From NCBI RefSeq assembly GCF_045679555.1, contig NC_092094.1, positions 10,286,319 through 10,350,318 of the forward strand: a stretch of DNA of 64,000 nt, read 5' to 3'. Shown here piece after piece: positions 6,181-55,544 of this stretch; the first letter of the stretch is position 1, and the number at the start of each line of letters is the position of its first letter. The notes beneath the pieces are model-generated. The model worked only from the letters and a program-made list of their open reading frames with translations. It made no database searches and had not been told where the DNA came from. Both the position numbers and the translations under genes were made by a program. The DNA is from Salvelinus alpinus (taxonomy: Eukaryota > Chordata > Actinopteri > Salmoniformes > Salmonidae).

Positions 6181-9010
6181 TAGGATTGCACATTTTGGGC
6201 AATATTTAGAGGTGGAAACTTTCCGTGGGAATTAACGGGAATATACGGGAAATAACGGGAATTAACAGAAATATATGCAAATAATATTAATACCATTTAA
6301 ATGTAATGTTTTTTGCATTGGTTATATTTACCATATCATATGAAGACAGACACATAAACCTTTTACCTTATCATAAGTATACATAATTGCAAATGATTAA
6401 ATCCTTCTAATAGATATTTAAAAAACTATTTAGTTACGAATTGAACTTTAATTAAATGAGTTGACTCTTCACATGGAATGATTTCACTGAACAACAAAAG
6501 AAAGAGAATATTGAATGATCCCCAATGATCCATCGCATCTCCCAAAAACGTTTTCAACATACATCTGTAAAATGATAGTCTAGAAACTAAAGCTTAGGTT
6601 GTCTTCCTCTCAGGCTTCCATGTCTTCTCCCTGCACCTACTCAATGACCACCTCTTGAACATCAGACTCTGAGGCCTCATCTTCATTGTCACTTTCCAAC
6701 CTTGTTGAGTTCAAATTTGCCCGGATGGCCACCAATTTTTCAACACTTGTATTGTTTAGCCTGTTGCGTGCTTTGGTGTGTGTGTTCCCAAACAAGGACC
6801 AGTTGTGCTCTGAGGTGACTGATCTTGGTGGGATTTGGAGGATGATGGAGGCAACAAGGGAAAGAGCCTCAGATCCACAAAGTCCCTTCCATCAGGGGGA
6901 TGATGAGATATGTTGGCACAACTGCCATATTGCATCTCCATCCCAAAGCCCTTGCTTGGAAGTGTACTTCGCCAGACTGCCAAGAACCTTGCCCTCATCC
7001 AGGCCAAGGTGGCGAGACACGGTAGTGATGACACCATAGACCTTGTTGATCTCTGCACCAGACAGGATGCACTTGCCAGCATACTTGGGGTCCAACATGT
7101 ACGCTGCGGCGTGTATAGGCTTCAGGCAGAAGTCTTCACGCTTTTTGACTTATTTCAGAACTGCAGTGTCCTCTGCTTGGAGCAACAGTGAAGTGGGCAG
7201 GGCAGTATGGACTTCTTCTCTTACATCTGCAAGCAGAGTCTGAACATTAGACAGGGTGGCATTGTCTCCCTCAATCCATGCAATGTCTACTGCTATAGGC
7301 TTCAGGAGTTTCAGGCTGCTTACCACTCTTTCCCAAAATACATCATCCAGGAGGATCCACTTGATGGGGCTGTCCATATCGTCAGACTGTGATATGGCCA
7401 TTTCTTGGAGAGACTCCTTCCCCTCCAGGAGACTGTCAAACAGGATGACAACACCACCCCAACGGGTGTTGTTGGGCAGCTTCAATGTGTTGCTCTTATT
7501 CTTCTCACTTTGCTTGGTGAGGTAGATTGCTGCTATATGACTTGATGACCCTTAACATACCTAACCATTTCCTTGGCTCTCTTGTAGAGTGTATCCATTG
7601 TTTTCAGTCCCATGATGTCCTTAAGGAGCCGATTCAATGCATGAGCAGCTCAGCCAATGGGTGTGATGTTAGGGTAGACCAAGCAGCCTTCATGTTCACA
7701 GCATTGTCTGTCATCAGTGCAAATACCTTCTGTGGTCCAAGGTAATTGATGACTGCCTTCACCTCATCTGCAATGCAGAGACTGGTGTGTCTGTTGTCTC
7801 TTGTGTCTGTGCTCTTGTATAATACTGGTTGAGGGGTGGAGACGATGTAGTTAATTATTCCTTGCCCACGAACATTCGACCACCCATCAGAGATGATTTC
7901 AATACAGTCTGCTTTCTCTATGATTTGCTTGACCTTCACTTGCACTCTGTCGAACTCTGCATCCAGCAAATGTATAGATAAAGCATGTCTGATTGGAGGG
8001 GTGTATGCTGGGCGAAGAACATTCAGAAATCTCTTCCAATACACATTGCCTGTGAGCATCAGAGGTGAACCAGAATACACAGCTCGAGCAAGACATTCAT
8101 CAGCATATCTCTGACTACGGTCCTCCATTGAGTCAAAAAAACTTCTGATTCCAGGAGGACCATGAGCTGTTGCTATCGATGTCTGATTCATCATTTTCAC
8201 CTCGAATAGAAGTAGAGGGACTTTTGTTGCTTGTTGTGAGTGCTGAGGGAACTTTATGCACTTGGCCAGATGATTCTGCATCTTTGTTGCATTCTTCACA
8301 TATGATTTGGCACAGTATTTGCAAATGTACACAGCTTTTCCTTCTACATTAGCTGCAGTGAAATGTCTCCAAACATCAGATATTGCCCGTGGCATTTTCC
8401 TGTAAAAAATGGGTTTAAAAAAACAACAAATACAATTCCATGTACAGATAAATAGTTAAGCAGTTAGATTACATAACTACTTTGTAAGATAAATGTTTTA
8501 AAATGAAACATGTATGGAAACAGGTGAATTAACACCACTCAGTTAGCAGGCTCAAGCAAGCTAAAACCCACATGGTAGAAAAAACTAACAGGCAGAAATT
8601 GTAAACAGTTAGAAATGATTTAAACACACTTTCATGTAAACTACTATTTACTAGTTAACAAAAAATAATGTATGTCATATAAAATATATTCACCCCACCC
8701 AGTATTGTAATGAAAACTTACCAGAAAGCATGTAGTCCTTGGCTCAGACAGTTTAGTAGTGTGGGCTCAATAGCATCTCATTAGTGTGCAAGATCTTGAG
8801 AATCAGCTGTACATGTGATGGAAGAATGCACTGTGCATGCAGAGGGTTGCAATTCCATTGAATTGGGGATAGTTTTACCAAAATATGCCACAAGACCTAT
8901 AATTGCCTTATGTTTATCCCACAAAAACTTTTTTTGATGAATTTAAGCCCAATTCCCCATATTCCCAGGCTTAACTTCCCATGGAAAATTTCCGGCCCTT
9001 TGCAACCCTA
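6181..9010 (-). mobile_element. hAT-superfamily DNA transposon with 8-bp target duplication
   Basis: Terminal inverted repeats are TAGGATTGCA at 6181 and TAGGGTTGCA read from 9010 on the minus strand. They are flanked by 8-bp target duplications ATCCCCAC (6173-6180) and ATTCCCAC (9011-9018), one mismatch apart. Eight base pairs is the hallmark length for hAT. The element is about 2.8 kb and carries a degenerate transposase on the minus strand. Confidence 0.9.
6640..8395 (-). pseudogene. hAT transposase relic with N-terminal BED zinc finger
   Basis: The frame begins at 8395 (MPRAISDVWRHF) and stays open for 253 codons. It starts with a BED finger: CKYC followed by HLAKC, around residues 23-46. 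After a stop near 7634 the homology continues in other frames: 7485-7150 (LKPIAVDIAWIEGD, then TALPTSLLLQAEDTAVLK), 7098-6892 (MLDPKYAGK, then VSRHLGLDEGKVLGSLAKY), and a C-terminal dimerisation region near 6850-6720 that would read WSLFGNTHTKARNRL. At least three frame breaks show that it is dead. Confidence 0.88.
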
Positions 9011-15362: not shown

Positions 15363-15848
15363 TGTAACAGTTTAACTTTAGTACGTCCCCTCGCCCCGAC
15401 CCGGGCGCGAACCAGGGACCCTCTGCACACATCAACAACAGTCACCCACGAAGCATCGTTACCCATCGCTCCACAAAAGCCGCGGCCGCCCCTCTGCAAG
15501 GGGAACAACTACTTCTAGGTCTCAGAGCGAGTGACGTGACCGATTGAAACACTATTAGCGCGCACCACCGCTAACTAGCTAGCCATTTCACATCGGTTAC
15601 ATTCACCTCCCTTTCCCGCAGTAACCAGTGATTCGGGTCAACAGCATCAATGTAACAGTTTTAACTTTAGTCCGTCCCCTCGCCCGGGCGCGAACCAGGG
15701 ACCCTCTGCACACAGACAACAGTCACCCACGAAGCATCGTTACCCATCGCTCCACAAAAGCCACGGCCCTTGCAGAGCAAGGGGAACAACTACAACTACT
15801 ATTAGCGCGCACCACCGCTAACTAGCTAGCCATTTCACATCGGTTACA
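15363..15848 (-). mobile_element. TRIM-like miniature LTR element with tRNA-like promoter in the LTR
   Basis: Two direct copies, 15363-15601 and 15651-15848, each begin TGTAAC and end GTTACA, the TG..CA form of LTRs. They are separated by only 49 bp. On the minus strand the 49-bp centre ends GGGAAAGGGAGGTGAA just before the downstream copy, which is where a polypurine tract belongs. Each copy contains a tRNA-like stretch: GTGGAGCGATGGGTAACG (A-box-like, in copies that keep it) and, downstream, GGTTCGCGCCC (B box). No primer-binding site is obvious, and no gag or pol exists. A solo copy with a clean 4-bp duplication lies at 35207-35404. A tandem tRNA-derived SINE is the alternative reading. 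Confidence 0.6.
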
Positions 15849-17274: not shown

Positions 17275-18640
17275 ACAGGAATAAATAACAGAGAGAGAGT
17301 ACAGGAATAAACAACCACAGAGAGAGAGTACAGGAATAAACAACCACAGAGAGAGAGAGTACAGGAATAAACAACCACAGAGAGAGAGTACAGGAATAAA
17401 CAACCAGAGAGAGAGAGCGAGTACAGGAATAAACAACCAGAGAGAGAGAGAGTACAGGAATAAACAACCACAGAGAGAGAGAGAGAGTACAGGAATAAAC
17501 AACCAGAGAGAGAGAGAGTACAGGAATAAACAACCACAGAGAGAGAGAGAGTACAGGAATAAACAACCACAGAGATAGAGTACAGGAATAAACAACCAGA
17601 GAGAGAGAGTACAGGAATAAACAACCAGAGAGAGAGAGAGAGTACAGGAATAAACAACCAGAGAGAGAGAGAGAGTACAGGAATAAACAACCACAGAGAG
17701 AGAGTACAGGAATAAACAACCACAGAGAGAGAGAGAGTACAGGAATAAACAACCACAGAGAGAGAGTACAGGAATAAACAACCAGAGAGAGAGAGAGAGT
17801 ACAGGAATAAACAACCAGAGAGAGAGAGAGTACAGGAATAAACAACCACAGAGAGAGAGTACAGGAATAAACAACCACAGAGAGAGAGAGAGTACAGGAA
17901 TAAACAACCAGAGAGAGAGAGAGTACAGGAATAAACAACCACAGAGAGAGAGTACAGGAATAAACAACTACAGAGAGAGAGTACAGGAATAAACAACCAC
18001 AGAGAGAGTACAGGAATAAACAACCACAGAGAGAGAGTACAGGAATAAACAACCAGAGAGAGAGAGAGAGTACAGGAATAAACAACCAGAGAGAGAGAGA
18101 GTACAGGAATAAACAACCAGAGAGAGAGAGAGTACAGGAATAAACAACCAGAGAGAGAGAGAGAGTACAGGAATAAACAACCAGAGAGAGAGAGAGAGTA
18201 CAGGAATAAACAACCACAGAGAGAGAGAGAGTACAGGAATAAACAACCAGAGAGAGAGAGTACAGGAATAAACAACCACAGAGAGAGTACAGGAATAAAC
18301 AACCACAGAGAGAGAGAGTACATGAATAAACAACCACAGAGAGAGAGAGTACAGGAATAAACAACCACAGAGAGAGAGAGAGTACAGGAATAAACAACCA
18401 GAGAGAGAGAGTACAGGAATAAACAACCAGAGAGAGAGAGTACAGGAATAAACAACCACAGAGAGAGAGTACAGGAATAAACAACCACAGAGAGAGAGAG
18501 TACAGGAATAAACAACCACAGAGAGAGAGAGAGTACAGGAATAAACAACCACAGAGCGAGAGAGAGTACAGGAATAAACAACCACAGAGAGAGAGAGAGT
18601 ACAGGAATAAACAACAGAGAGTACAGGAATAAATAACAAT
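17275..18640. repeat. Large 28-34-bp minisatellite with internal GA microsatellite
   Basis: About 45 units of TACAGGAATAAACAACCA, an optional CA, and (GA)4-8. The length of the GA run varies between units while the 18-bp core is almost invariant, so this is a minisatellite whose units each contain a slipping microsatellite. Open frames of 223-472 codons on the minus strand (LFIPVLSL.. repeats) arise only from the repeat. Confidence 0.97.
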
Positions 18641-18659: not shown

Positions 18660-19850
18660 AAAGGAGTCATACACACTGATGGTATCATTTATTCACTTTA
18701 ATAACTTTAGATGTTATACAGAAAGTAGCCAAACTAATAACATAGTTATCAAGACAGAAATATATATTTTTACAAAATTGCAATGAAACACTTTATGCAG
18801 TTGTACTTACCATATACACCATACATCATTATATATCATATACGTGTAAACTACGATTTGGTCCGTTTCCATGAGCTGCTAATCTGCCTCCCAGAACACT
18901 GATTTCATATGGTGCTAGAACAGGGAACACACATCTAAACCACCATAGGAAACCAGCTTCTGGGGGGAGTAACTCAGTACACCTTCAGTGCTCTGTATTT
19001 TTACTGTGTCTGAGGTCATTGAAATTGTCTTCATTCTGCCAGCAGAGGTCTGCAGACAGTGGGTGTGGTAGGTTATTTGTGGATTATAGAGCAATGCGAT
19101 GGCCTGGCTGAGACCGGCTTGTTATTAAAGTAGGAAGTAGGGAGATCACAGGTTACCTTGGTGACGGGTTGGAGAGAGAGAGTAACTCTCCTAATTCTCG
19201 CATTTCACTGTCTGCATGTCATGTCCCCTTCTAAAAATGAGAGCATAGAGAACAGGGAGTGTGGCCTGGTCACATGTACTATTCAGAAACCAAAACGGTT
19301 GTGATGAAAACCTGAACAGGGAAACAAAGAGGGAGCGTCATGGAGAAATTCTGCCAGCTTGCATTCTAGCAATACAATGCGCAGTATTTCCTGGATACAC
19401 ACGAGGGTAGGTTACCATTTACTTCAGGAGGAGTGAGGAGTAGTACATGGATATTCTGAAAGCTTGCACATTTACCATTACAGTTGGCAGTACTTCCTAC
19501 ATTCTTACGAGAGTACAGTTTCCCTGAAGAGGACAGAGGTTCAGTACAGTACCGTTGTGCAGCATCAGCAAAGCACGGCAGGACGCTCCCGGGTGGTTGG
19601 GAGGTCTCCTCCTGAGAGTAAAGAGGGAGAAGAAAATAGACTTAGCTTGTAATATAGAGAGGAGTTGTGTGTTATAGTGAGAGTCTACGAATCCTCAATT
19701 CAACCATGTACATAACGGTTGTGTTGAGAGCGTGGGCTGTTCTCAGATGGTCCACACACCACCACCCCCGGGTGTCACCCGGTGTCATTTGACATGGCGA
19801 GTTCACCATGTTGCACGGACACACACACACCATATGTCCACTATAGGCTC
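18660..19850. other. Unique sequence, no confident gene
   Basis: Mixed-composition DNA. A minus-strand stretch from about 19620 to 19372 stays open for roughly 80 codons after a CTCTCAG acceptor-like site, but it has no start and matches nothing I know. It could be part of a terminal exon or a long non-coding transcript. Confidence 0.35.
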
Positions 19851-20666: not shown

Positions 20667-21689
<1,023 letters not shown>

Positions 21690-28098: not shown

Positions 28099-29725
28099 CA
28101 GTTGAAATCATGAAATCATACACCTTAGCCAAATACCTTTAAACTCAGTTTTTCACAATTCCTGACATTTAATCCAAGTACAAATTCCCTGTTTTAGGTC
28201 AGTTTGGATCACCACTTTATTGTAAGAATGTGAAATGTCAGAATAATAGTAGAGAGAATTATTTCTTTCAGCTTTTATTTCTTTCATCACATTCCCAGTG
28301 GGTCATAAGTTTACATACACTCAATTAATATTTAGTAGCATTGCCTTTAAATTGTTTAACTTGGGTCAAATGTTTTGGGTAGCTTTCCACAAGCTTCCCA
28401 CAATAAGTTGGGTGAATTTTGGCCCATTCCTCCTGACAGGGCTGGTGTAACTGAGTCAGGTTTGTAGGCCTCCTTGCTCGCACATGCTTTTACAGTTCTG
28501 CCCACAAATGTTCTATAGGATTGAGGTCAGGGCTTTGTGACGGCCACTCCAATACCTTGACTTTGTTGTCCTTAAGCCATTTGCCACAACTTTGGAAGTA
28601 TGCTTGGGGTCATTGTTCAATTGGAAGACCCATTTGCGACCACGCTTTAACTTTGTGACTGATGTCTTGAGATGTTGCTTCAATATATCCACATAATTAT
28701 CCTGCCTCATGATGCCATATATTTTGTGAAGTGCAACAGTCCCTCCTGCAGTAAAGCACTCCCACAACATGATGCTGCCACCACCGTGCTTCACGGTTGG
28801 GATGGTGTTCTTTGGATTGCAAGCCTCCCCCTTTTTCCTCCAAACATAACGATGGTCATTATGGCCAAACAGTACTATTTTTGTTTCATCAGACCAGAGG
28901 ACATTTCTCCAAAAAGCACGATCTTTGTCCTCATGTGCAGTTGCAAACCGTAGTCTGGCTTTTTTATGGCCGTTTTGGAGCAGTGGCTTCTTCCTTGCTG
29001 AGCGGCCTTTCAGGTTATGTCGATATAGGACTTGTTTTACTACGGATATAGATACTTTTGTACCCGTTTCCTCCAGCATCTTCACAAGGTCCTTTGCTGT
29101 TGTTCTGGGATTGATTTGCACTTTTCGCACCAAAGTACGTTCATCTCTAGGAGACAGAACGCGTCTCCTTCCTGAGCGGTATGGCGGCTGCATGGTCCCA
29201 TGATGTTTATACTTGCGTACTATTGTTTGTACAGATGAACGTGGTACCTTCATGGGTTTGGAAATTGCTCCCAAGGATGAACCAGACTTGTGGAGGTCTA
29301 CAATTGTTTTTCTGAGGTCTTGGCTGATTTCTTTTGATTTTCCCATGATGTCAAGCAAAGAGGCACTGAGTTTGAAGGTAGGCCTTGAAATACATCCACG
29401 GGTACCCCTCCAATTGACTCAAATTATGTCAATTAGCCTATCAGAAGCTTCTAAAGACATGACATCATTTTCAGTAATTTCCCAAGCTGTTTAAAGGCAC
29501 AGTCAACTTAGTGTATGTAAACTTCTGACCCACTGGAATTGAGATACAGTGAATTATAAGTTAAATAATCTGTCTGTAAACAATTGTTGGGAAAATTATT
29601 TGTGTCATGCACAAAGTAGATGTCCTAACCGACTTGCCAAAACTATAGTTTAACAAGAAATTTGTGGAGTGGTCGAAAAACCGAGTTTTAATGACTCCAA
29701 CATAAGTGTATGTAAACTTCAACTG
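28099..29725 (-). mobile_element. Tc1-like transposon, copy B
   Basis: Same family as copy A, opposite orientation. The ends are CAGTTGAAATCATGAAATCA at 28099 and CAGTTGAAGTTTACATACAC read from 29725; TA flanks both. The right end has lost several bases of the outer inverted repeat. Length is 1627 bp, close to the family norm. Confidence 0.93.
28332..29346 (-). pseudogene. Tc1 transposase, copy B, nearly full length but frameshifted
   Basis: ATG at 29346. About 278 codons are open: an N-terminal paired-like helix-turn-helix region ([19 protein letters not shown]), then LWSDETKI with the first Asp. The second catalytic Asp is Asn here (FQLNNDPKH against FQMDNDPKH). A frameshift after SKVVA makes the DNA-encoded DLNPIE motif unreadable, and the frame stops at 28513. 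It needs both a frame repair and the lost Asp to be active, so it is dead. Confidence 0.93.
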
Positions 29726-30202: not shown

Positions 30203-31681
30203 AACTCAGCAAAAAAAGAAATGTCAACTGCGTTTATTTTCAGCGAACTTAACATGTGTAAATATTTGTATGAACACAAGATTCAACAACTGAGACAAAC
30301 TGAACAAGTTCCACAGACATGTGACTAATATAAATGAAATAATGTGTCCCTGAACAAAAAGGGGGGGGGGGGGGGGTCAAAATCAAAAGTAACAGTCAGT
30401 ATCTGGTGTGGCCACAAACTGCTTTAAGTACTGCAGTGCATCTCATACATGGACTGCACCAGATTTGCCGGTTCTTGCTGTGCGATGTTACCCCACTCTT
30501 CCACCGAGGCACATGCAAGTTCCCGGACATTTCTCGGGGGGAATGGCCTTAACCCTCACCCTCCGATCCAACAGGTCCCAGACATGCTCAATGGGATTGA
30601 GATCTGGGCTCTTCGCTGGCCATGGCAGAACACTGACATTCCTGTCTTGCAGGAAATCACGCACAGCACGAACAGTATGGCTGGTGGCATTGTCATGCTG
30701 GAGGGTCATGTCAGGATGAGCCTGCAGTAAGGGTACCACATGTAGGAGGAGGATGTCTTCCCTGTAACGCACAGCATTGAGATTGCCTGCAATGACAACA
30801 AGCTCAGTCCGATGATGCTGTGACATACCGCCCCAGACCCTCCACCTCCAAATCGATCCCGCTCCAGAGTACAGGCCTTGGTGTAACGCTTATTCCTTCG
30901 ACGATAAACGCGAATCCGACTATCACCCCTGGTGAGACAAAACCGTGACTCGTCAGTGAAGAGCACTTTTTGCCAGTCCTGTCTGGTCCAGCAACGGTGG
31001 GTTTGTGCCCATAGGTGACGTTGTTGCCGGTGATGTCTGGTGAGGACCTGCCTTACAACAGGCCTACAAGCCCTCAGTCCAGCCTCTCTCAGCCTATTGC
31101 GGACAGTCTGAGCACTGATGGAGGGATTGTGCATTCCTGGTGTAACTTGGGCAGTTGTTGTTGCCTTCCTGTACCTGTCCCGCAGGTGTGATGTTTGGAT
31201 GTACCGATCCTGTGCAGGTGTTGTTACACGTGGTCTGCCACTGCGAGGACGATCAGCTGTTGGTCCTGTCTTCCTGTAGCGCCGTCTTTGGCGTCTCACA
31301 GTACGGACATTGCAATTTATTGCCCTGGCCACATCTGCAGTACTCATGCCTCCTTGCAGCATGCTTAAGGCACGTTCACACAGATGAGCAGGGACCTTGG
31401 GCATCTTTCATTTGGTGTTTTTCAGAGTCAGTAGAAAGACCTCTTTAGTGTCCTAAGTTTTCATAACTGTGACCTTAATTGCCTACCGTCTGTAAGCTGT
31501 TCGTGTCTTAACGACCGTTCCACAGGTGCATGCTCATTAATTGTTTATGGTTCATTGAACAAGCATGGGAAACAGTGTTTAACCCCTTTACAATGAAAAT
31601 CTGTGAAGTTATTTGGATTTTTACGAATTATCTTTGAAAGAAAAGGTCTTGAAAAAGGGATGTTTCTTTTTTTGCTGAGTT
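30203..31681 (-). mobile_element. Tc1-like transposon, second family
   Basis: Inverted ends AACTCAGCAAAAAAAGAAAT at 30203 and AACTCAGCAAAAAAAGAAAC read from 31681; TA at both sides (30201-30202 and 31682-31683). A G-run at 30361-30377 has expanded inside it. Inserted in the L1 relic. Confidence 0.92.
30400..31404 (-). pseudogene. Tc1-like transposase, second family, frameshifted
   Basis: ATG at 31404 (MPKVPAHLCERALSMLQGGM). An N-terminal helix-turn-helix region (RTVRRQRRRYRKTGPTADRP) is followed by the first catalytic Asp in LFTDESRFCL. A deletion in the family's GGGSVMVWGG motif, near 30850, shifts the frame. The remainder is readable at 30826-30488 with the second Asp (LQHDNATSH) and Glu ([14 protein letters not shown]). 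A further break after IPPEK ends it. The triad is present but split between two frames. Confidence 0.92.
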
Positions 31682-34003: not shown

Positions 34004-34255
34004 GTTGCAAAGAAAAAGCCATATCTCAGACTGGCCAATAAAAAGAAAAGATTAAGATGGGGATAAAGAGCAGACACTTGACAGAGGAACTCTTTGCAAC
34101 TCTGCCTAGAAGGCCAGCATCCCAGAGTCGCCTCTTTACTGTTGACGTTGAGACTAGAGGTCGACCGATTAATTGGAATGGCCGATTAATTAGGGCTGAT
34201 TTCAAGTTTTCATAACAATCGGAAATCGGTAATTTTGGACGCTGATTTTTTTGAT

Positions 34256-34440
34256 TTTTTTACACCTTTATTTAACAAGGCAAGTCAGTTAAGAACACAT
34301 TCTTATTTTCAATGACGGCCTAGGAACGGTGGGTTAACTGCCTTGTTCAGGGGCAGAACGACAGATTTTTACTTGTCAGCTCAGGGATTCAATCTTGCAA
34401 CCTTACGGTTTACTAGTCCAACGCTCTAACCACCTGCCTC
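34256..34440 (-). mobile_element. HpaI-type tRNA-derived SINE
   Basis: On the minus strand: GGCAGGTGGTTAGAGCGTTG (A-box region), TTGCAAGATTGAATCCC (B-box region), the HpaI site in CAGTTAACCCAC, then the shared tail ..GAACTAACTG-type and TTAAATAAAGGTGTAAAA. This matches the salmonid HpaI SINE family. Copy 2 of the host element lacks it. Confidence 0.88.
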
Positions 34441-35206
34441 ACGAGGAGCCCGCTTGTTACGCGAATGCAGTAAGAAGCCAAGGTAAGTTGCTAGCTAGCA
34501 TTAAACTTATCTTATAAAAAACAATTAATCAATCAATCATAATCACTAGTTATAACTACACATGGTTGATGATATTATTAGTTTATCTAGCGTGTCCTGC
34601 GTTGCATATAATTGATGCAGTGCGCATTCGCGAAAAATGACTGTCGTTGCTCCAACGTGTACCTAACCATAAACATCAATCCCTTTCTTAAAATCAATAC
34701 ACAGAAGTATATATTTTTAAACCTGCATATTTAGCTAAAGGAAATCCAGGTTAGCAGGCAATATTAACCAGGTGAAATTGTGTCACTTCTCCTGCGTTCA
34801 TTGCACGCAGAGTCAGGGTATATGCAACAGTTTGGGCCGCCTGGCAAACTAATTTGCCAGAATTGTACGTAATTATGACATAACATTGAAGGTTGTGCAA
34901 TGTAACAGGAATATTTAGACTTATGGATGCCACCCGTTAGATAAAATACGGAACGGTTCCGTATTTCACTGAAAGAATAAACGTTTTGTTTTCGAGATGA
35001 TAGTTTCCAGATTCTACCATATTAATGACCTAAGGGTCGTATTTCTGTGTGTTATTATGTTATAATTAAGTCTGTCTATGATTTGACAGGCTCGTAAGCA
35101 TTCATTCAAACAGCACTTTCGTGCGTTTTGCCAGCAGCTCTTCGCAATGCTTCAAGCATTGCGCTGTTTATGACTTCAAGCCTATCAACTCCTGAGATTA
35201 GGCTGG

Positions 35207-35404
35207 TGTAACCGATGTGAAATGGCTAGCTAGTTAGCGGAGTGCGCGCTAATAGCGTTTCAAACGTCACTCGCTCTGAGATTTGGAGTAGTCGTTCCCC
35301 TTGCTCTGCATGGGTAACGCTGCTTCGAGGGTGGCTGTTGTCGATGTGTTCCTGGTTCGAGCCCAGGTAGCGGCGAGGAGAGGGATGGAAGCTATACTGT
35401 TACA
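35207..35404 (+). mobile_element. Solo LTR of the TRIM-like element
   Basis: 198 bp from TGTAACC to GTTACA with a 4-bp duplication CTGG (35203-35206, 35405-35408). The empty site is preserved in the sister hAT-like copy (GGCTGGCAATAC at 53731-53742), so the borders are exact. It contains a perfect tRNA T-arm (CCTGG-TTCGAGC-CCAGG). The A-box-like part is partly deleted in this copy. Confidence 0.8.
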
Positions 35405-36689
35405 CTGGCAATACTAAAGTGCCTATAAGAACATCCAATAGTCAAGCTATATGAAATACAAATCGTATAGAGAGAAATAGTCCTATAATTCCTATAATAA
35501 CTACAACCTAAAACTTCTTACCTGGGAATATTGAAGACTCATGTTAAAAGGAACCACCAGCTTTCATATATTCTCATGTTCTGAGCAAGGAACTTAAACT
35601 TTAGCTTTCTTACATGGCACATATTGCACTTTTACTTTCTTCTCCAACACTTTGTTTTTGCATTATTTAAACCGAATTGAACATGTTTCATTATTTATTT
35701 GAGGCTAACTTGATTTTATTGATGTATTATATTATATTAAGTTAAAATAAGTGTTCATTCAGTATTGTTGTAATTGTCATTATTACAAATTAATAAATAA
35801 AAATTGGCTGATTAATCGGTAATCGGCCTTTTTGGTCCTCCAGTAACCGGTATCGGTATCAGCTTTGAAAAATCATAATCGGTCGACCTTTAGTTGAGAC
35901 TAGTGTTTTGCGGGTACTATTTAATGAAGCTGCCAGTTGAGGACTTGTGAGATGTATGTTTCTCAAACTAGACACTAACGTACTTGTTCTCTTGCTCAGT
36001 TGTGCACCGGGGCCTCCCACTCCTCTTTCTATTCTGGTTAGACAGTTTGCGCTGTTCTGTGAAGGGAGTAGTACACAGCGTTGTACGAGATCTTCCGTTT
36101 CTTGGAAATTTCTCGCATGGAATAGCCTTCATTTCTCAGAACAAGAATAGACTGACAAGTTTCAGAAGACAGTTCTTTGTTTCTGGAAATTTTGAGCCTG
36201 TAATTGAACCCACAAATGATGATGCTCCAGATACTCAACTAGTCTAAGGCCAGTTTATTTGCTTCTTTATTTAGAACAACAATTTTCAGCTATGCTAACA
36301 TAATTGCAAAAGGGTTTTCTAATGATCAATTACCCTTTTAAAATGATAAACTTCGATTAGCTAACACAACGTGCCATTGGAACACGGGAGTGATGGTTGC
36401 TGATAATGGGCCTCTGTATGCATATGTAGATATTCCATAAAAAAATCTGCCGTTTGGACCTACAATAGTCATTTACAACATTAACAATGTCTACACTGTA
36501 TTTCGGATCAATTTGATGTTATTTTAATTGACAAAAAAAAAAGCTTTTCTTTCAAAAACAAGGACGTTTCTAAGTGACCCAAAACTTTTGAACGGTAGTG
36601 TATATATATAAAATAAATACTACCCCTGATTGGTCTCCAGACTGCAAACAGACACATCCTTGGTAACAATCACTATGGCATGCCCTGCC

Positions 36690-41149: not shown

Positions 41150-44100
41150 CTAACCTCCAATGCTCTTAGTCTGAAAAACAAAGAAGAAGAACGGGCTTGA
41201 CTAAAATGTCAGTTCACAATAGCGTTGTGTATGTTTCACTTTCAGTCTGTGTGTCAGAGAGAGAAATAAAGATGTGTGTGAGACCTTGTGGTTGTCCACA
41301 CACTGCATGTACAAGTTGGCGATGCCAGAGCAGGTGAGGGTCTGTCCAGTGTTCTCCCTGTAGCACTTCAGGATCTGACTCTGCAGGTCACCACACACTG
41401 GCTTGATGTCAACACGCCTGGGAATAGAGAGAGAGATGAGACACATCCTACTATACCATAGTCTGCCCAGTCAAGACAGTTTGTTTTTGTCAAACAGAAT
41501 GTGTTCTCAATAACCTACCTGGTTAAATAGTAAAGGAAGTTAAAACCTTTAGCCTACGGCCCAGTGTAATGACGAGCAATGGGGGGGACAAAAACAGATA
41601 GTTACATATCGCGATATGATTTTTGGATGATATTATAAATTGATACTTGACTCCAAGTATTTATTTAAAAAAATGTGTTTTTGTTAGGTAGCCTTAGAGA
41701 GCTAGTCAGCTGTATCTCCGACAAAACGCTGGTATTTTTCATCCTATAGCTTGTTCTCCATCTTTTTAAATAGTAATCCAACATGTTTTCAGCACTTTTA
41801 CTTCCACGACTGATCAGAACTAATTTTGTCATGCTGTCTCTTGTCCCTCTGTAGCAGACATATGTTGAGCAATATGTAGGGCTGAAGGTCATGGAATTTT
41901 GGATGACAGTAATTGACCAGCCAAATTACCATGGTAATAACGGTTTGAATATTTTATTTATATATATAAAAAAATATAAAAAAATGGATGCACATTTTCT
42001 CCTCTCCTGAATGCATGTGATGCCATAGAAATAGAATGAATAGAACGGGTGTCCGAATTCAAGTCAATGATGGCATAATGGGTGGACTGGCGGCCATTGC
42101 GAGTGTATCCATAGGAACAAAGGAGGACGTAAAAGCAGGAAGTGCACCCATCAATATGTGCTGTGATTTGTTGATTCAAATCAACTGACATAAAAAATAT
42201 AAACACATTCCATTGCATGAGCCACATCAGTTAACATCATTTGAATGAACATTCTCCATTACCATGGAAATTATTGCATCACAATACCAGGCAGTCATTG
42301 TACCCATGAGTTTACCTATCAAATTGCCAGGGTTAGAGGTTCCAAGCCCATTCTATTTATTGTTTGCTACCACACCTTGCTTGTTTCAGCAAGGGGTAAC
42401 ACAGTTTCATCACGTTGTTAAGAGTCCATGTTACCTTAGAAACGGACTCAACCACACGAATACCTAGCCATCCCGTCTTCAGTCACCTGTTCGTTCGGTT
42501 ATAGCGGTCATTTTATTTCTTCATCCACAACTGTCAGTTACATGGTTATTGTGCCAGCCCTAGCAATGTTTGGAACATCAAATTGCAATAAAATCAAAGT
42601 ATCGAACCGGCACCTAAGTATAGTGAAACAATCATATTGGGAGGTCCCTGGCAAATCCCAGCCCCAATAACGATGATACTCACTTGAAGGTGTTGTGAGC
42701 GTCCTCTCTGCCCTTCTTGAAGTTCTCTGTGGTGACTTTGAAGAACTGAGCACTCTGTTAACGAGGTGAACAACACAACAGCTGTTGAACTGTTGACAAG
42801 CTGTAGGACACTGGTATGACTGTGCCTACTGAGCTGTCATGCATTGTAGGGAAAGTAAGGTGGTGTGTCAGCATTTACAGTTGAAGTTGGAAGTTTAGAC
42901 ACACCTTAGTCAAATACATTTAAACTCAGTTTCACAATTCCTGACATTTAATCCTAGCAAAAATGATTTATTTCAACTTTTATTTCTTTCATCACATTCT
43001 CAGTGGGTCAGAAGTTAACATACATTCAATTATTATTTGGTAGCATTGCCTTTAAATTGTGGGTAGCCTTTAAATTGTGGGAAGCTTGGGTAGCCTTCCA
43101 CAAGCTTCCCACAATAAGTTGGGTGAATTTTGGCCCACTCCTCCTGACGGAGCTGATGTAACTGAGTCAGGTTTGTAGGCCTCGTTGCTCGCACACACTT
43201 TTTCAGTTTTGCACACAAATTCTCTATAGGATTGAGGTCAGGGCTTTGTGATGGCCACTCCAATAACTTGACTTTGTTTTCCTTAAGCCATTTTGCCACA
43301 ACTTTGGAAGTATGCTTGGGGTCATTGTCCATTTGGAAGACCCAATTGCGACCAGGCTTTAACTTCCTGACTGATGTCTTGAGCGACTTACAAGTCTCCA
43401 ACTTGTAAGTCGCTCTGGATAAGAGCGTCTGCTAAATGACTTAAATGTTGATGTTGCTTCAATATATCCACATAATTTTTCTACCTCAGGATGCCATCTA
43501 TTTTGTGAAGTGTACCACCCCCACAACATGATGCTGCTACCCCCGTGCTTCATGGTTGGGATGGTGTTCTTCGGCTTGCAAGCGTCCCCCTTTTTCCTCC
43601 AAACATAACGATGGTCCTTATGGCCAAACAGTTCTATTTTGGTTTCATCGGACATTTCTCCAAATAGTACGATCTTTGTGCAGCTGCAAACCGTAGTCTG
43701 GCTATTTTATGGCCTTTTTGGAGCAGTGGCTTCTTCCTTGCTGAGTGGCCTTTCAGGTTACGTCGATATATAGGACTTGTTTTACTGTGGATATAGATAC
43801 TTTTGTACCTGTTTCCTCCAGCATCTTCACAAGGTAATTTGCTGCTGTTCTGGGATTGATTTGCACTTTTCGCACCAAAGTACGTTCATCTCTAGGAGAC
43901 AGAACGCGTCTCCTTCCTGAGCGGTATGATGGCTGCGTGGTCCTATGGTGTTTATACTTGCGTACTATTGTTTGTACAGATGAACGTGGTACCTTCAGGC
44001 GTTTGGAAATTGCTCCCAAGGATGACCCAGACTTGTGGAGGTATACAATTTTTTTTCTGAAGTCTTGGCTAATTTCTTTTGATTTTCCCATGATGTCAAG

Positions 44101-50100: not shown

Positions 50101-53100
50101 AGGTTTTGCTAGCCTGAGGTAGAATACCTCATGATAAGCTGTAGACCACGCTATTTACTGAGAGCTTTCATCTATATTCTTCGTAGCTGTCTATTTACCA
50201 CCACAAACCGATCCTGGGACTAAGAGCACACTCAAAGAGCTGTATAAGGCCATAAGAAAACACTCATGGCGCTTCTAGTGGCCAGGGACTTTAATGCAGG
50301 AAAACTGAAATCCGTTTTACCTCATTTCTACCAGTATGTCACATGTGCAGCTAGAAGGAAAAAACAACAACCTCTAGATCACCTTTACTTCACACACAGA
50401 GACACGTACAAATCTCTCCTTCACCCTCCATTTGGTAAATCTGAGCATAACTCTATCCTCCTGATTCCTGCTTACAAGCTAAAACTCAAAAAGTCCCAGC
50501 TCAATACGGAAAGCGGCCCGATGAAGCGGATTCTAAGCTACAGAACTGTTTCACAAGCACAGACTGGAATATGTTCCGGGATTCATCCGATGGCATTGAG
50601 GAGTCTAACACAGTCACCGGCTTCATTATAAGTGCATCGACGAAGTCATCCCCAAAGTGACCATACGTACATATCCCAACCAGAAGCCATAAATTCCAGG
50701 AGACATTCGCACTGAGCTAAAGGCCAGAGCTTGCAAACTATCACAGATTACAAAGGGAATCCCAGCTGCGAGCCTACCAGATGAGCTAAATGCCTTCTAT
50801 GCGCGCTTCGTGGCAAGCAACACTGAACAATGCATGAGAGCACCAGCTGTTCCAGACAACTATGCTTGATCACACTCGCCATAGTTGATGTGCGTAAGGC
50901 CTTTAAACAGGTTCATTTTCACAAGGCCGCAGAGCCAGACAGATTACCAGTATGCGCTGGACACATGCCAGACATTTTCAACCTCTCCCTGACCCAGTCT
51001 GTACCTACATGTTTCAAGCAGACCACCATAGTACCTGTGCCCTAGAATGCCAAAGTATCCTGCCTAAATGACTACCACCGCCATAGCACTCACATCTGTA
51101 GCCATGAAATGCTTTGAAAGGCTGGTCATGGCTCACATCAACACCATCCTCCCAGAAACCTTGGACCCACTTCAATTCACATACCGCCCCAACAGATCCG
51201 CAGATTGCACAATCTCTATTTCACTCCACACTGCCCTTTCCCACCTGGATAAAAGAAACACCTAGACTACATGAACATCTCATTCAAAATCATGGGCATT
51301 AATATGGAGTTGGTCCCCTTTGATGCCATTACATCCTCCACTCTTCTGGGAAGGCGTTCCACTAGATGTTGGAACATGTCTGCAGGGACTTACTTTCATT
51401 CAGCTACAAGAGCATTAGTGAAGTCGGGCACTGATGTTGGCCTGGCTCGGACTCAGCATTCCAATTCATCCCAAAGGTGTTTGATGGGCTTGAGGTCAGG
51501 ACTCTGTGGAGGTCGATCAAGTTCTTCCACATCGATCTCAACAAACCATTTATGTATGGACCTCACTTTGTGCATGGGGGCATTGTTATCCTGAAACAGG
51601 GAAGGGCCTTCCTCAAACTGTTGCCACAAAGTTGGAAACACAGAATCGTCTAGAATGTCATTGTATGCTATAGCGTTAAGATTTCCCTTCAATGGAACTA
51701 AACAGCCCCAGACCATTATCCATCCTCCACCAAACTTTACAGTTGGCACTACGCATTGGGGCAGGTTCTCCTGGCATCCACCAAACCCAGATTTGTCCGC
51801 CGGACTTCCAGATGGTGAAGCATGATTCATCACTCCAGAGAATGCATTTTCACTGCTCCAGAGTTTAATGGCGGCGCACCTTACAACACTACAGCCAACG
51901 CTTAGCATTGGTGATCTTAGGCTTGCGTACGGCTGCTCGGCCATGGAAGCCAATTTCATGACGCTCCCCACAGATAGTTATTGTGCTGATGTTGCTTCCA
52001 GAGGAAGTTTGGAACTCAGTAGTGACTATTGAAATGGAGGACAGGCGATATTTACACACGCTTCAGCAGTCGGCGGTCCCGTTCTATGGCTTGTGTGGCC
52101 TAGAAATTTGACAAACTGACTTGTTGGAAAGGTGCATCCTATGACAGTGCCACGTTGAAAGTCACTGAGCTCTTCATTAAGGCTATTCTCCTGACAATAT
52201 TTGTCTATGGAGATTGCACGGCTGGGTGCTGGATTTTATACACCGGTCAGCCACGGTTGTGGGTGAAATAGCCGAATCCACTAATATGAAGGGGCGTCCA
52301 CATATTTATGTATTTATAGTGTATGTGAGAAAGCTGTTCATTGACTACAGCTCAGTGTTCAACACCATAGAGCCCTCCAAGCTCATCACTAAGCTAAGGA
52401 TCCTGGGACGAGCCACCCCCAGGTGGTGAGGGTAGGCAACAACACATCTGCCACGCTGATCCTCAACACGGGGGCCCCTCAGGGGTACGTGCTGTTGTGG
52501 AAAATAAAACGAATTATTCCACCACAGTGCTTAATCCCCTCCTGTACTCCCTGTTCACCCACGACCGCGTGGCTATGACGTGGTAGGACTGATCACACGC
52601 GTATCTGCCCTCGCATTGACTAGAATGGTCCAACCTGATATCGCTTTCTCCCATCAGCCTTCTATCTTTGAGGACATGTATTTCCATTGTTGGAGCGGTC
52701 ACTCAACTATCTTGTCAATATAAAAGACAGTCTATAGGGAGGAGGTCAGAGACCTGGCAGTGTGTTGCCAGGACAACAACATCTCCCTCAATGTGATCAA
52801 AACAAAGGAGATGATTGTGGACTACAGGAAAAGGAGGGCTGAGCACGCCCCCTTTCACATCGACAGGGCTGTAGTGGAGCGGGTTGAGAGCTTCAAGTTC
52901 CTTGGTGTCCACATCTAAGGACCTATCGCGGTCCAAACTAGAGGTCGACCGATTAATCGGAATGGCCGATTAATTAGGGACGATTTCAAGTTTTCATAAC
53001 AATCGGTTATCGGCATTTTTGGACGCCGATTATGGCCGATTATATTGCAATCCACGAGGAGACTGCGTGGCAGGCTGACCACCTGTTACGTGAGTGCAGG

Positions 53101-55544
53101 CAGCAAGGAGCCATGGTAAGTTGCTAGCTAGCATTAACCTTATCTTATAAAAAACAATCAATCTTAACATAATCACTAGTTAACTGCACATGGTTGATGA
53201 TATTACTAGTTTAACTAGCTTGTCCTGCGTTGCATATAATCAATGCTGTGCCTGAAATTGTGTCACTTCTCTTGCGTTCAGTGTAAGCAGAGTCAGGGTA
53301 TATGCAGCAGTTTGGGCCGCCTGGCTCGTTGCGAACTGTGTGAAGACCGTAATTTGCCAGAATTTTACATAATTATGACATAACATTGAAGGTTGTGCAA
53401 TGTAACAGCAATATTTAGACTTATGGATGCCACCCGTTCGATAAAATACGGAACAGTTGTGTATTTCCCTGAAAGAATAAACGTTTTGTTTTCGAAATGA
53501 TAGTTTCCGGATTTGACCATATTAATGACCTAAGGCTCGTATTTCTGTGTGTTCATTATATTATAATTAAGTCTATGATTTGATATAGCAGTCTGACTGA
53601 GCGGTGGTAGGCAGCAGCAGGCTCTAAATCATTCATTCAAACCACACTTTCCTCCATTTGCCAGCACCTTTTAGCAATGCTTGAAGCACAGCGCTGTTTA
53701 TGACTTCAAGCCTATCAACTCCCAGGATTAGGCTGGCAATACTAAAGTGCCTATAAGAACATCCAAAAGTCAAAGGTCTATGAAATACAAATGGTATAGA
53801 GAGAAATAGTCCTATAATAACTACAACCTAAAACGTCTTAACTGGGAATATTGAAGACTCATGTTAAAAGGAACCACCAGCTGTCATATGTTCTCATGTT
53901 CTGAGCAAGGAACTTAACGTTAGGTTTTTTTACATGGCACATATTGCACTTTTACTTTCTTCTCCAACACTGTGTTTTTCATTATTTAAACAAATTGAAC
54001 ATGTTTAATTATTTATTTGAGACTAAATAGATGTTATTTATGCATTATATTAAGTTCAAATAAGTGTTCATTGTTCATTCAGTATTGTTGTAATTGTCAT
54101 TATTACAACTATATAAATAAAATAAAATAAAAGTATCGTCTTTTTTTGGTCCTCCAATAATCGGTATCGGCGTTGAAAAAATCATTGTCAGTCGACCTAT
54201 AGTCCAAACACACCAATACAGTCGTGAAGAGGGCACAGCAACGTCTATTCCCTCTCAGGAGGCTGAAAATATTAGGCATGGCGGGACATCAACTCCTCAA
54301 AAAGTTATACAGCTGCACCATCTAGAGCATCCTGTCTGGTTGCATCACCGCTTGGTATGGCAACTGCTCGGCATCTGACCACAAGACGATACAGATGGTA
54401 GTGCGTACGGCCCAGTACATCACTGGGGCCGAACTTCCAGGCGGTGTCAGATGAAGGCCCTAAAAATGTTCAAAAACTCCAGCCACCCAAGTCAGACTGT
54501 TTTCTCTGCTACCGCACGGCAAGCGGTACCGGAGCGCCAAGTCTGGGACCAAAAAGTTCCTTAACAGCTTCTACCCCCAAGCCATAAGACTGCTGAATAG
54601 TTCATCAGATAGCAACCCGGATTATTTGCATTGCCCCCCTTATTTTATTATAATTTTTTGCACCGACTCTCTTGCACAGACTTGATGTCAACTCACTGGA
54701 CTCCAACCACACACACACACACATTCCTTCACATATGCTGCTGCTATTCTCTATGCTTAGTCACTTTACCCCTACCTACATATTACCTCAATTACCTTGA
54801 CTAACCAGTACCACTGCACATTGACTCGGTATATAACCTCGTTATTGTTATCTTATTCTGTTACTATTTTCTCTAGTTTATTTAGCACATTTTTCTTACT
54901 TTAAAAACAAAAAATAACAAAAAACACTCTGCATTGTTGGTTAGGGGCTCCTAAGTAAGCAATTCACGGTAATATCTTCGCCTGTTCTATTCTGTGCATG
55001 TGACAAATACTGTCCAAAATCAAATTGTAACTGCAGTTACATTTCAAAATTACTGCAGTACTGCAAACGATTTAAAAGGGACGGGGGGGTCACGGAGGAG
55101 AGAGGATGGAGGGCGGGGACGGACTTTTCCCCAAATGAGAAAAGGCCTGGGCAATTTGGGGGGCGTAGCAGCATATTGTTTTCAAATTAAATGGTTGTGC
55201 AATGTGTAAAAACTGGCTGTTTGCCCGCTTATGAAAATACATCGATTTTGATTTACTTGGAAAGTGAACGTGCTGATGGGGCTGTTGGAAGAAGCATATG
55301 CATCGATGTTTTTCACGAATGTGGTGCGTTTCAGTATTTTGGCATAATATCGACATTCGACAAAAACAAATGCAACATAACTGAAATTATACGGTTTTCT
55401 GTAATCAATGACTAAGGGCACGTAACATTGTTGCATGTTTTTGGGTTACATAAACTTTGTATCTCGTTGCTCACTCACCCTAATGCCCTTCACAAAAGTA
55501 ACGTGGTCGTCTTCATACGAGACGTGGCTGCTGTTGCCTCCCAT
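41150..55544 (-). CDS. chchd3: chchd3 / Mic19, MICOS subunit with a long Pro/Val-rich insert (complete)
   Basis: Mic19 is an inner-membrane-associated subunit of the mitochondrial MICOS complex that maintains crista junctions. Exons in coding order: 55479-55544 ([22 protein letters not shown]; the Gly2 start fits N-myristoylation as in human CHCHD3), 46797-47985, 46386-46476 ([12 protein letters not shown]), 45994-46174 (coiled coil, [20 protein letters not shown]), 44766-44849 ([20 protein letters not shown]), 42684-42754 ([20 protein letters not shown]), 41285-41417 (CHCH domain, [11 protein letters not shown] and [11 protein letters not shown], twin CX9C), 41150-41170 (TKSIGG, stop TAG). 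All junctions carry AG/GT and the phases close exactly: 1836 nt, 611 aa. Human CHCHD3 is 227 aa; exon 2 supplies nearly all the excess. The paralogue CHCHD6 is less likely because of the N- and C-terminal matches and the slc35b4 neighbour. Confidence 0.93.
42878..44480 (-). mobile_element. Tc1-like transposon, copy C, in a chchd3 intron
   Basis: Same family as copies A and B. The ends are CAGTTGAAGTTGGAAGTTTA at 42878 and CAGTTGAAGTCGGAAGTTTA read from 44480; TA flanks both. Transposase pieces on the minus strand: 44091-43753 ([20 protein letters not shown]), 43655-43460 ([19 protein letters not shown], then a deletion after SSIMLWG) and 43380-43033 ([17 protein letters not shown]). It is dead through deletions, frameshifts and an L2-tail insertion at about 43381. 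Confidence 0.93.
43381..43452 (+). mobile_element. L2-tail fragment with a 15-bp hairpin, inside Tc1 copy C
   Basis: GAGCGACTTACAAGT (43381-43395) is perfectly reversed at 43401-43415, and GTAAGTCGCTCTGGATAAGA, GCGTCTGCTAAATGACTTAA is the teleost L2 3' end. It interrupts the family text ..GTCTTGA / GATGTTGCTTC.., with only a few bases repeated at the sides. It resembles a tail-only retrotransposition, or a small SINE using the L2 tail. Confidence 0.8.
44483..44580 (+). mobile_element. Retroelement tail with degenerate hammerhead-like phrase
   Basis: CTGAAGAAGATCCTTTTTGG, ATCCAAACATTGTCAATAAA, then GGTGGCAATTGGGAGC. It is structurally like the tail at 13037-13066 (CTGA..GA, hairpin GATCC/GGATC, AAAC..GTC), but the G of GAAA is lost and no stem I pairing is visible. 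It abuts the Tc1 copy C end. Confidence 0.4.
45209..45450. repeat. 51-bp minisatellite, about 5 copies, chchd3 intron
   Basis: The unit is GATCTGCTCTGAACTCAACT, TGCCAGCCTGGCAGTCAGGA, TTGAGGAAGCA. Each unit contains the palindrome GCCAGCCTGGC. The open frames on both strands reflect the multiple-of-three length. Confidence 0.93.
46797..47985 (-). CDS. chchd3: chchd3 exon 2: 396-codon Pro/Val/Glu-rich insertion
   Basis: After an acceptor at 47986 the exon begins [19 protein letters not shown], the equivalent of human LSENVIDRMKES. It continues for about 380 codons of degenerate PEVK-like sequence ([47 protein letters not shown]) and ends at a GTGAGT donor with phase 1. There is no stop in 1189 nt. 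Weak 10-13-residue periodicity around the EP(I/V)V motif suggests growth by internal duplication. The segment is probably disordered and separates the N-terminal motif from the coiled coil. Intron retention is unlikely because both borders fit neighbouring exon phases. Confidence 0.88.
48657..48790. repeat. Interspersed repeat, inverted copy at 52599-52727
   Basis: GTCTTTTATATTGACAAGAT, AGTTGAGTGACCGCTCCAAC through GGGCAGATACGCGTGT occurs here and, reversed, inside the LINE at 52.6 kb. It continues rightward here (..AAACAGGCCACATAGATAG..), so this copy is the longer. A non-autonomous repeat family is the simplest reading. Confidence 0.7.
49293..49560. mobile_element. hAT-derived repeat fragment
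   Basis: Starts CAGGGTTCCCCAACTGGCGG CC, the terminal sequence of a widespread fish/vertebrate hAT group, and continues with family text (GATATATGTGATATCGTATA, CAAATGTAAGCAAAG). A G-run lies at 49371-49382. No coding region remains. Confidence 0.6.
51265..52321 (-). mobile_element. Tc1-like element, fifth family, inserted in LINE copy 1
   Basis: The LINE text ..AAACACC TA / TA TGTGAG.. is split by it, leaving TA on both sides (51263-51264 and 52322-52323). The inner right end reads CACTATAAATACATAAATAT on the minus strand. Minus-strand transposase at 51971-51453 retains [30 protein letters not shown] (Asp followed by NN) and [17 protein letters not shown], where the catalytic Glu is Lys. It is dead. 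Confidence 0.88.
52939..54201. mobile_element. Non-autonomous hAT-like element, GGTCGACC ends, copy 2
   Basis: Ends TAGAGGTCGACCGATTAATC and TATAGGTCGACTGACAATG; a perfect 8-bp target duplication GTCCAAAC lies at 52931-52938 and 54202-54209. The interior matches copy 1 closely (for example GTTGCTAGCTAGCATTAA, TTTGGGCCGCCTGGC) but lacks its SINE and solo LTR. Inserted in LINE copy 1. Confidence 0.92.

Follow-up and report, generated by a model that had tools for sequence, protein, structure and literature searches.

The locus described here raises the question of whether two closely spaced direct repeats form a retrotransposon and, if so, how such a short element is transcribed and copied. It lies in the window, by which we mean the entire 64,000-nucleotide stretch of Salvelinus alpinus DNA that was analyzed. 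The initial annotation had described TG..CA direct repeats of about 200 bp around 49 bp, with a polypurine tract right before the downstream repeat, and had read them as a TRIM-like element whose LTRs carry a tRNA-like Pol III promoter. This architecture was borne out: in minus-strand sense, TG..CA LTRs of 198 and 239 nt, with the termini TGTAAC...GTTACA, enclose 49 nt, and the polypurine tract abuts the 3′ LTR (Table 1). The two LTRs are unlike at 12 of 197 aligned sites. They have in common a 32-mer for which shuffling gives an expectation of 0.00 occurrences when up to 3 mismatches are tolerated, and a 34-mer from the LTR start has 2,467 exact matches in the 2.37-Gb genome compared to 0 for the reversed control; the repeat pair is thus not a product of chance. 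At less than 1000 bp, the window element is too short for genes, and its assignment as a non-coding TRIM is strongly supported. It is a shortened copy of 486 nt, whereas intact ones reach about 540 nt. The internal region of most of the other full copies examined measures 62-63 nt and consists of the primer-binding site (PBS) followed by purines. The flanks of the window copy, CTCT and CTGA, form no 4-bp duplication.

Table 1. Features of the window, with positions counted from its first nucleotide
Feature	Position	Strand	Description
5′ LTR	15651-15848	-	198 nt, TGTAACCG...CTGTTACA; shortened by internal deletions
Internal region	15602-15650	-	49 nt
3′ LTR	15363-15601	-	239 nt
Polypurine tract	15602-15617	-	GGGAAAGGGAGGTGAA; adjoins 3′ LTR
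PBS region	15632-15650	-	Decayed copy of variant form TTGATGCTGTTGACCCGGAT
A-box-like stretch	15457-15473 (3′ LTR), 15738-15754 (5′ LTR)	-	TGGAGCGATGGGTAACG; weak promoter match
B-box-like stretch	15403-15413 (3′ LTR), 15686-15696 (5′ LTR)	-	GGTTCGCGCCC
CTTTTG with T4 run	15474-15479 (3′ LTR), 15755-15760 (5′ LTR)	-	Just upstream of A-box-like stretch
Solo LTR	35207-35404	+	Related subfamily without T4 and part of A-box region; target duplication CTGG at 35203-35206 and 35405-35408
T-arm-like stretch in solo LTR	35351-35367	+	CCTGGTTCGAGCCCAGG
hAT-like DNA transposon carrying solo LTR	34155-35892	+	Ends TAGAGGTCGACC.../...GGTCGACCTTTA; 8-bp duplication GTTGAGAC
Second hAT-like copy, LTR site empty	52939-54201	+	8-bp duplication GTCCAAAC; single CTGG at 53733-53736
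Tc1/Sleeping Beauty-type transposase ORF	28513-29418	-	
Tc1/Sleeping Beauty-type transposase ORF	60516-61586	+	
Tc1/Sleeping Beauty-type transposase ORF	20835-21557	+	
Tc1/Sleeping Beauty-type transposase ORF	30706-31407	-	
Tc1/Sleeping Beauty-type transposase ORF	62294-62929	+	
ORF with DUF659 and BED-finger matches	7634-8455	-	
mir-29 precursor	18893-18961	-	Exceeds Rfam gathering score
Minisatellite	17290-18615		Long, 33-nt unit; near mir-29 precursor
UnaL2 LINE 3′ element	43392-43445	+	

Copies elsewhere in the genome strongly support the TRIM-like reading, since they combine LTR-internal-LTR units and TG..CA ends with a PBS, a polypurine tract and short target duplications, all of 4 bp. 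We sampled the first 100 of the 2,467 matches listed, all of which are on contig C1, and after merging 4 with a neighbor we obtained 96 loci. Both LTR ends were found in 82 of these, and the other 14, in which one end was not found, were set aside. The flanks resemble those of the solo LTR of the window (AGATTAGGCTGG...CTGGCAATACTA or near) in 57 of the two-ended loci and do not in 25. Perfect 4-bp duplications surround 17 of 23 complete non-hAT copies (18 of 25 before the omission of L071, in which the end of an array was misread, and L083, in which the upstream flank is the copy's own polypurine tract), compared to 8 of 600 cross-pairings of flanks from all 25 non-hAT copies. A perfect 5- or 6-bp duplication was found at none of the 82 two-ended loci. 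In a second set of 20 copies, picked by an exact form of the PBS, 19 are complete at both ends and flanked by a 4-bp duplication, which is uninformative in the case of L105 because this copy sits in a TA repeat. The LTR pairs of three copies (L105, L111 and L119) are identical over 235-238 nt, indicating that the family was recently active. The genome also contains tandem arrays in which the units recur about every 300 nt. As expected of a fish repeat, exact 22-mers of the element had no match in IMG/VR and GTDB contigs.

Solo copies with 4-bp duplications had likewise been put forward as evidence of LTR behavior, and this point was upheld only in part. Scanning the window with both LTRs identified one solo LTR, not several. 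It has CTGG on both sides, but it was most likely multiplied by a DNA transposon and provides no independent genome-wide evidence. Its carrier is hAT-like by its 8-bp duplications and inverted ends, which were observed in two window copies and correspond to the 8-bp duplications and short inverted ends of hAT non-autonomous transposons. Joined at a single CTGG, the flanks of the filled site agree with the empty site of the second copy at 350 of 381 positions, and the filled junction TTAGGCTGG-TGTAACCGATGTGAAATGG occurs at 1,714 places in the genome (control, 0). Because the filled junction is present at 1,714 places or more and the second copy has an empty site, the solo LTR is most likely a single insertion that the hAT-like transposon multiplied to at least 1,714 places. 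It would have formed once inside the transposon, probably through LTR-LTR recombination, with the spread of the transposon following. Counts of solo LTRs would consequently overstate retrotransposition, with one insertion standing behind at least 1,714 copies made by a DNA transposon. The hAT-like transposon merely carries the LTR and is no part of the TRIM. Two hAT-borne LTRs 53 kb apart (L025 and L026) have in common an insert of about 430 nt within the LTR; either the carrier spread further or the segment was duplicated locally.

The primer used by the family points to tRNA-His. Among 25 tRNAs compared, tRNA-His was the best by complementarity to two intact internal regions, and shuffles scored as well against it in 0 of 300 and 1 of 300 cases, respectively; the decayed PBS of the window copy alone was not significant (42 of 300 shuffles equal). 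The human-type tRNA-His end had 0 matches in the genome, and a fish form was found instead: the genome's own tRNA-His end, CCGCAGCAACCCCGGTTCGAATCCGGGTCACGGCA, is present at 15 exact places and 2 places with one mismatch, at which the 3′ part of the gene was read. The exact form of the PBS, TGGTGCCGTGACCCGGAT, pairs in full with the last 18 nt of this genomic end once CCA is added, and it begins 1 nt after the 5′ LTR. A tRNA primer gives 18 nt when copying halts at methylated A58. Past the PBS follow four other bases and then a second, 11-nt complement of tRNA-His, GGTTGCTGCGG. Out of 5,000 shuffles each, the longest complementary run was attained by 0 for the variant form, 29 for L071 and 342 for the window copy. 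The internal region may thus be built almost wholly from a primer copy and the purine tract. The internal region of L111, a copy with identical LTRs, is partly replaced and includes 16 nt that we take to be identical to the sense D-arm of human tRNA-His, perhaps reflecting a template switch onto the primer tRNA. Taken together, the element seems to carry readable traces of a cellular tRNA-His starting its copying.

The PBS exists in two forms. When counted together with the adjoining LTR end, the tRNA-exact form occurs at 292 places in the genome and the variant form, with two substitutions and an extra base relative to tRNA-His, at 1,308. A degenerate pattern covering both forms and some intermediates matched 1,656 places, and the first 100 of these listed comprise 88 variant, 11 exact and 1 intermediate form. 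Among sites with 64 identical nt from TGACCC on, which include the PBS remainder, the polypurine tract and the LTR start TGTAACGGATG, 151 are exact and 727 variant. The exact share is 17.2% in this identical context and 18.3% overall. Form and subfamily are not fully separated, since 17 of 20 sampled exact-form copies start with TGTAACGG.

Some elements contain both forms. Among the 20 exact-form copies visible from both sides, L112, L120 and L122 are three-LTR elements with the exact PBS first and the variant second, and in each of them one 4-bp duplication surrounds the entire unit. No upstream unit was found in the other two-ended copies of this set. Among 40 further exact-form copies viewed downstream only, a second unit was present in 5, and all of these units were variant. 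Among the listed matches of the degenerate pattern, eight variant-variant neighbor pairs and no variant-exact pair were noted, and the listed matches of the exact form include exact-exact arrays at two places (C4:35096717/35097018 and C5:79736053/350/647). The exact-then-variant order thus rests on the three elements visible from both sides; a sign test of the order (8 vs 0) was discarded as invalid because, for 40 of the 60 exact-form copies, the view was limited to the downstream side. Based on counts of LTR differences, the outer pair is the closest in L120 (1 vs 2 and 3) and L112 (12 vs 14 and 15) and tied in L122 (5 vs 8 and 5), and it is not the closest pair in the variant-variant array L007 (10 vs 7 and 5). 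For L114, in which the LTRs were split by the alignment, the pair comparison (21 sites) was left unused.

What transcribes such an element is less clearly indicated by its sequence. For each of 10 LTRs, the best tRNA alignment on the sense strand was equalled by just 0-3 of 100 dinucleotide shuffles, and the A- and B-box-like stretches are collinear, A then B, in element sense. However, the Rfam tRNA model had no match in the window copies or in six young copies, ARAGORN reported no tRNA in the window or in 20 loci, and the combined A and B box score was equalled by 47 of 500 and 55 of 500 shuffles of two young LTRs, about 10%. In an alignment of 42 LTRs, conservation was 0.978 for the A-box-like stretch and 0.916 for GGTTCGCGCCC, compared to a mean of 0.938; by rank, the A-box-like window was 29th of 223 and CCCTGGTTCG was 41st of 230. 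Exactly one T4 run is present in 34 of the 42 LTRs, and 31 of 36 runs fall within offsets 122-124 of the LTR, immediately 5′ of the A-box-like stretch. In exact-form copies, the 5′ LTR has T4 at the usual place in 15 of 19 cases, counting L114, for which it was printed at 107 of a segment starting at LTR position 13. The run is missing from L107, L110, L113 and L123, and three of these four copies have just 1-2 LTR differences. It is possible that the T4 run of the 3′ LTR acts as a putative Pol III terminator. Of the tRNA-like Pol III promoter that had been proposed, the tRNA-like part is thus real as a resemblance, and the predicted promoter is weakly supported. A CRE-like motif, TGACGTCA, was considered as a promoter element and rejected: it is present in 35 of 42 LTRs, but exact-form copies lack it in 35 of 38 LTR segments.

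During reverse transcription, the tRNA end serves as the template for the plus strand, and the PBS in the minus strand is templated by the RNA. Where the PBS no longer corresponds to its primer, a mismatched duplex therefore results, and a more internal PBS is copied from RNA only. Set against this background, two discrete PBS forms in one sequence context, together with mixed elements in which the exact form is first, suggest that the primer tRNA overwrites the PBS. We favor, with moderate confidence, a TRIM that is moved by the enzymes of an LTR retrotransposon and primed by tRNA-His, with the PBS mismatch resolved both ways and Pol III transcription as the weakest part; our confidence is slightly lowered by the fact that the order of PBS forms was seen from both sides in three elements. 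According to this model, an RNA would run from the 5′ LTR into the 3′ LTR. At the weakest step, Pol III would start from the tRNA-like stretch of the 5′ LTR, and the transcript would stop at the T4 run of the 3′ LTR, giving a short terminal repeat comparable to that of Cassandra. Host tRNA-His would prime at the PBS 1 nt past the 5′ LTR, copying would follow and be finished from the polypurine tract, and integration would proceed through 4-bp staggered cuts. At that stage, the 18 nt copied from tRNA-His would sit in the plus strand, opposite a minus-strand PBS that stems from the RNA template. Resolution of this mismatch in the integrated copy would mostly favor the template variant, at about 82% of junctions, and would yield the tRNA-exact form at about 18%. 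We infer the step from the mismatch to 18% exact forms; a 50:50 resolution would exceed the observed 17-18%.

Three other explanations have to be weighed against this model. A SINE with fortuitous terminal repeats would account for the tRNA-like stretch, but we consider it extremely improbable given the 4-bp duplications, TG..CA ends, LTR pairs, PBS and polypurine tract, and an A-rich tail is absent from the copies printed. Neither A-rich tails with long variable duplications nor a loss of TG..CA ends was found in the copies examined, and SINE behavior is thus refuted and rejected. A different objection concerns the PBS forms, which could represent two lineages, each with its own primer or with a modified mode of priming, with the mixed elements as recombinants. 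The existence of exact-exact arrays and the start of 17 of 20 exact-form copies, which is TGTAACGG and not the TGTAACCG pattern, are what would be expected of separate lineages. Yet both forms occur within 64 identical downstream nt that include TGTAACGG, at a similar share (17.2% and 18.3%), and each of the three mixed elements, with its three LTRs, is enclosed as a whole by a single 4-bp duplication. Moreover, a tRNA matching the variant would, by inference, need a TCA end and not CCA. On balance, two lineages appear rather unlikely.

More weight must be given to the possibility that the TRIM is transcribed by Pol II from its LTR and that the A- and B-box-like stretches are chance matches or functionless relics. 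The failure of tRNA models to match, the roughly 10% of shuffles that attain the A and B score, a conservation of GGTTCGCGCCC slightly below the LTR mean and the absence of T4 from some young copies all agree with transcription by Pol II. They stand against a tRNA alignment that just 0-3 of 100 shuffles attain in each of 10 LTRs, a match that is collinear and in element sense, and an A-box-like stretch ranking among the better conserved windows. In addition, tRNA-like LTR stretches recur in fish TRIMs according to the text of PMC10886601. We regard Pol II transcription as a serious contender that is still the less probable one.

Taken further, the family could be read as a genomic record of primer use, in which the template PBS has drifted, an exact 18-nt copy of tRNA-His enters one strand at every reverse transcription and is kept in about one-sixth of insertions, and the inner PBSs of tandem elements, which are never primed, stay drifted. 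We consider the chances of this interpretation to be even. If it holds, the exact share would be a measure of how the host resolves PBS mismatches after integration, with a bias against the tRNA-derived strand. Work on this step generally relies on retroviruses with engineered PBS mutations. In a retroelement that has two PBS states and many copies that can be dated, both the priming tRNA and the resolution of the mismatch could be readable from genome sequence alone.

A search for an autonomous partner, as the initial annotation had advised, led to other families sharing the PBS and not to a coding element. At 50 places in the genome, the 18-nt PBS is present but the next base is not the C of the TRIM; some of these places lie in TRIM arrays (C12:10522248 and neighbors) or at tRNA-His places (C23, C31 and C33). 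Twelve such sites in which the PBS ends in ATG were fetched (L165-L176), and 10 share an LTR end while the remaining 2 have a different one; tRNA-His thus appears to prime at least two LTR families besides the TRIM. Six open frames from two 2.5-kb loci were scanned one by one; a GDSL lipase-like domain was the sole match, and no reverse transcriptase was found in these frames. The frame with this domain (L178:428-1069, plus strand) is located some 2.2 kb past a tRNA-His PBS that is not part of the TRIM and possibly belongs, as we presume, to a CR1-like LINE. Within the window, a Pfam scan of ten chosen of the 32 listed ORFs identified no reverse transcriptase, and four had no match at all. Five ORFs are of the Tc1/Sleeping Beauty transposase type, and the ORF with DUF659 and BED-finger matches possibly derives from a hAT-type transposase. 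A mir-29 precursor, a minisatellite and the 3′ element of an UnaL2 LINE are further features of the window (Table 1); the transposases of the Tc1 and Sleeping Beauty type and the UnaL2 end are in keeping with fish DNA.

The salmonid family can be compared with two known systems. Helenus elements are TRIMs of less than 1000 bp that have a tRNA-like stretch in the LTR, a PBS and a polypurine tract (Kojima 2024, PMC10886601). The text of this paper describes 4-bp duplications in animals, tRNA-His, -Leu or -Lys as vertebrate primers, tandem arrays of zebrafish LTR-11_DR, and, in most families, box A as TRGCY and YGG and box B as GGTTC; Pol III transcription is putative for Helenus as well (PMC10886601). 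The family reported here has in common with Helenus, as described there, the tRNA-like LTR stretch, a length below 1000 bp, the PBS and polypurine tract, 4-bp duplications, a tRNA-His primer and tandem arrays. Its likeness to tRNA is weaker: YGG and GGTTC are present, whereas the TRGCY position reads TGGAG. We therefore classify the family as a TRIM and, provisionally, as Helenus-like, likened by description and not by consensus sequences, because the evidence on a tRNA origin of the LTR stretch is divided between the alignments that 0-3 of 100 shuffles equal and the lack of a tRNA model match, together with A and B boxes that about 10% of shuffles equal. No salmonid is present in Table 1 of PMC10886601, and Salmo, trout and Oncorhynchus are absent from its main text. 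Full-text literature searches returned no match for strings of the LTR sequence and none for a salmonid TRIM or a tRNA-linked non-autonomous LTR element of Salmo salar, and in the accessible part of the literature since 2023 the name Helenus appeared otherwise in a meeting report alone. The two PBS forms, with their hint of overwriting, and the hAT-multiplied solo LTR go beyond what the text of PMC10886601 describes.

The animal counterpart of Cassandra that had been envisaged does exist as a kind of element, but it was already published in 2024 as Helenus (PMC10886601). Cassandra of plants likewise carries a small-RNA sequence resembling a Pol III promoter in its LTRs, with a start in the 5′ LTR and a stop in the 3′ LTR, as outlined in the text of PMC10886601. 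The small RNA is 5S rRNA in Cassandra, for which transcription has been reported in its plant hosts, whereas the salmonid family has a tRNA-like stretch and is known from sequence. Our findings add a large salmonid family to the TRIMs with tRNA-like LTRs.
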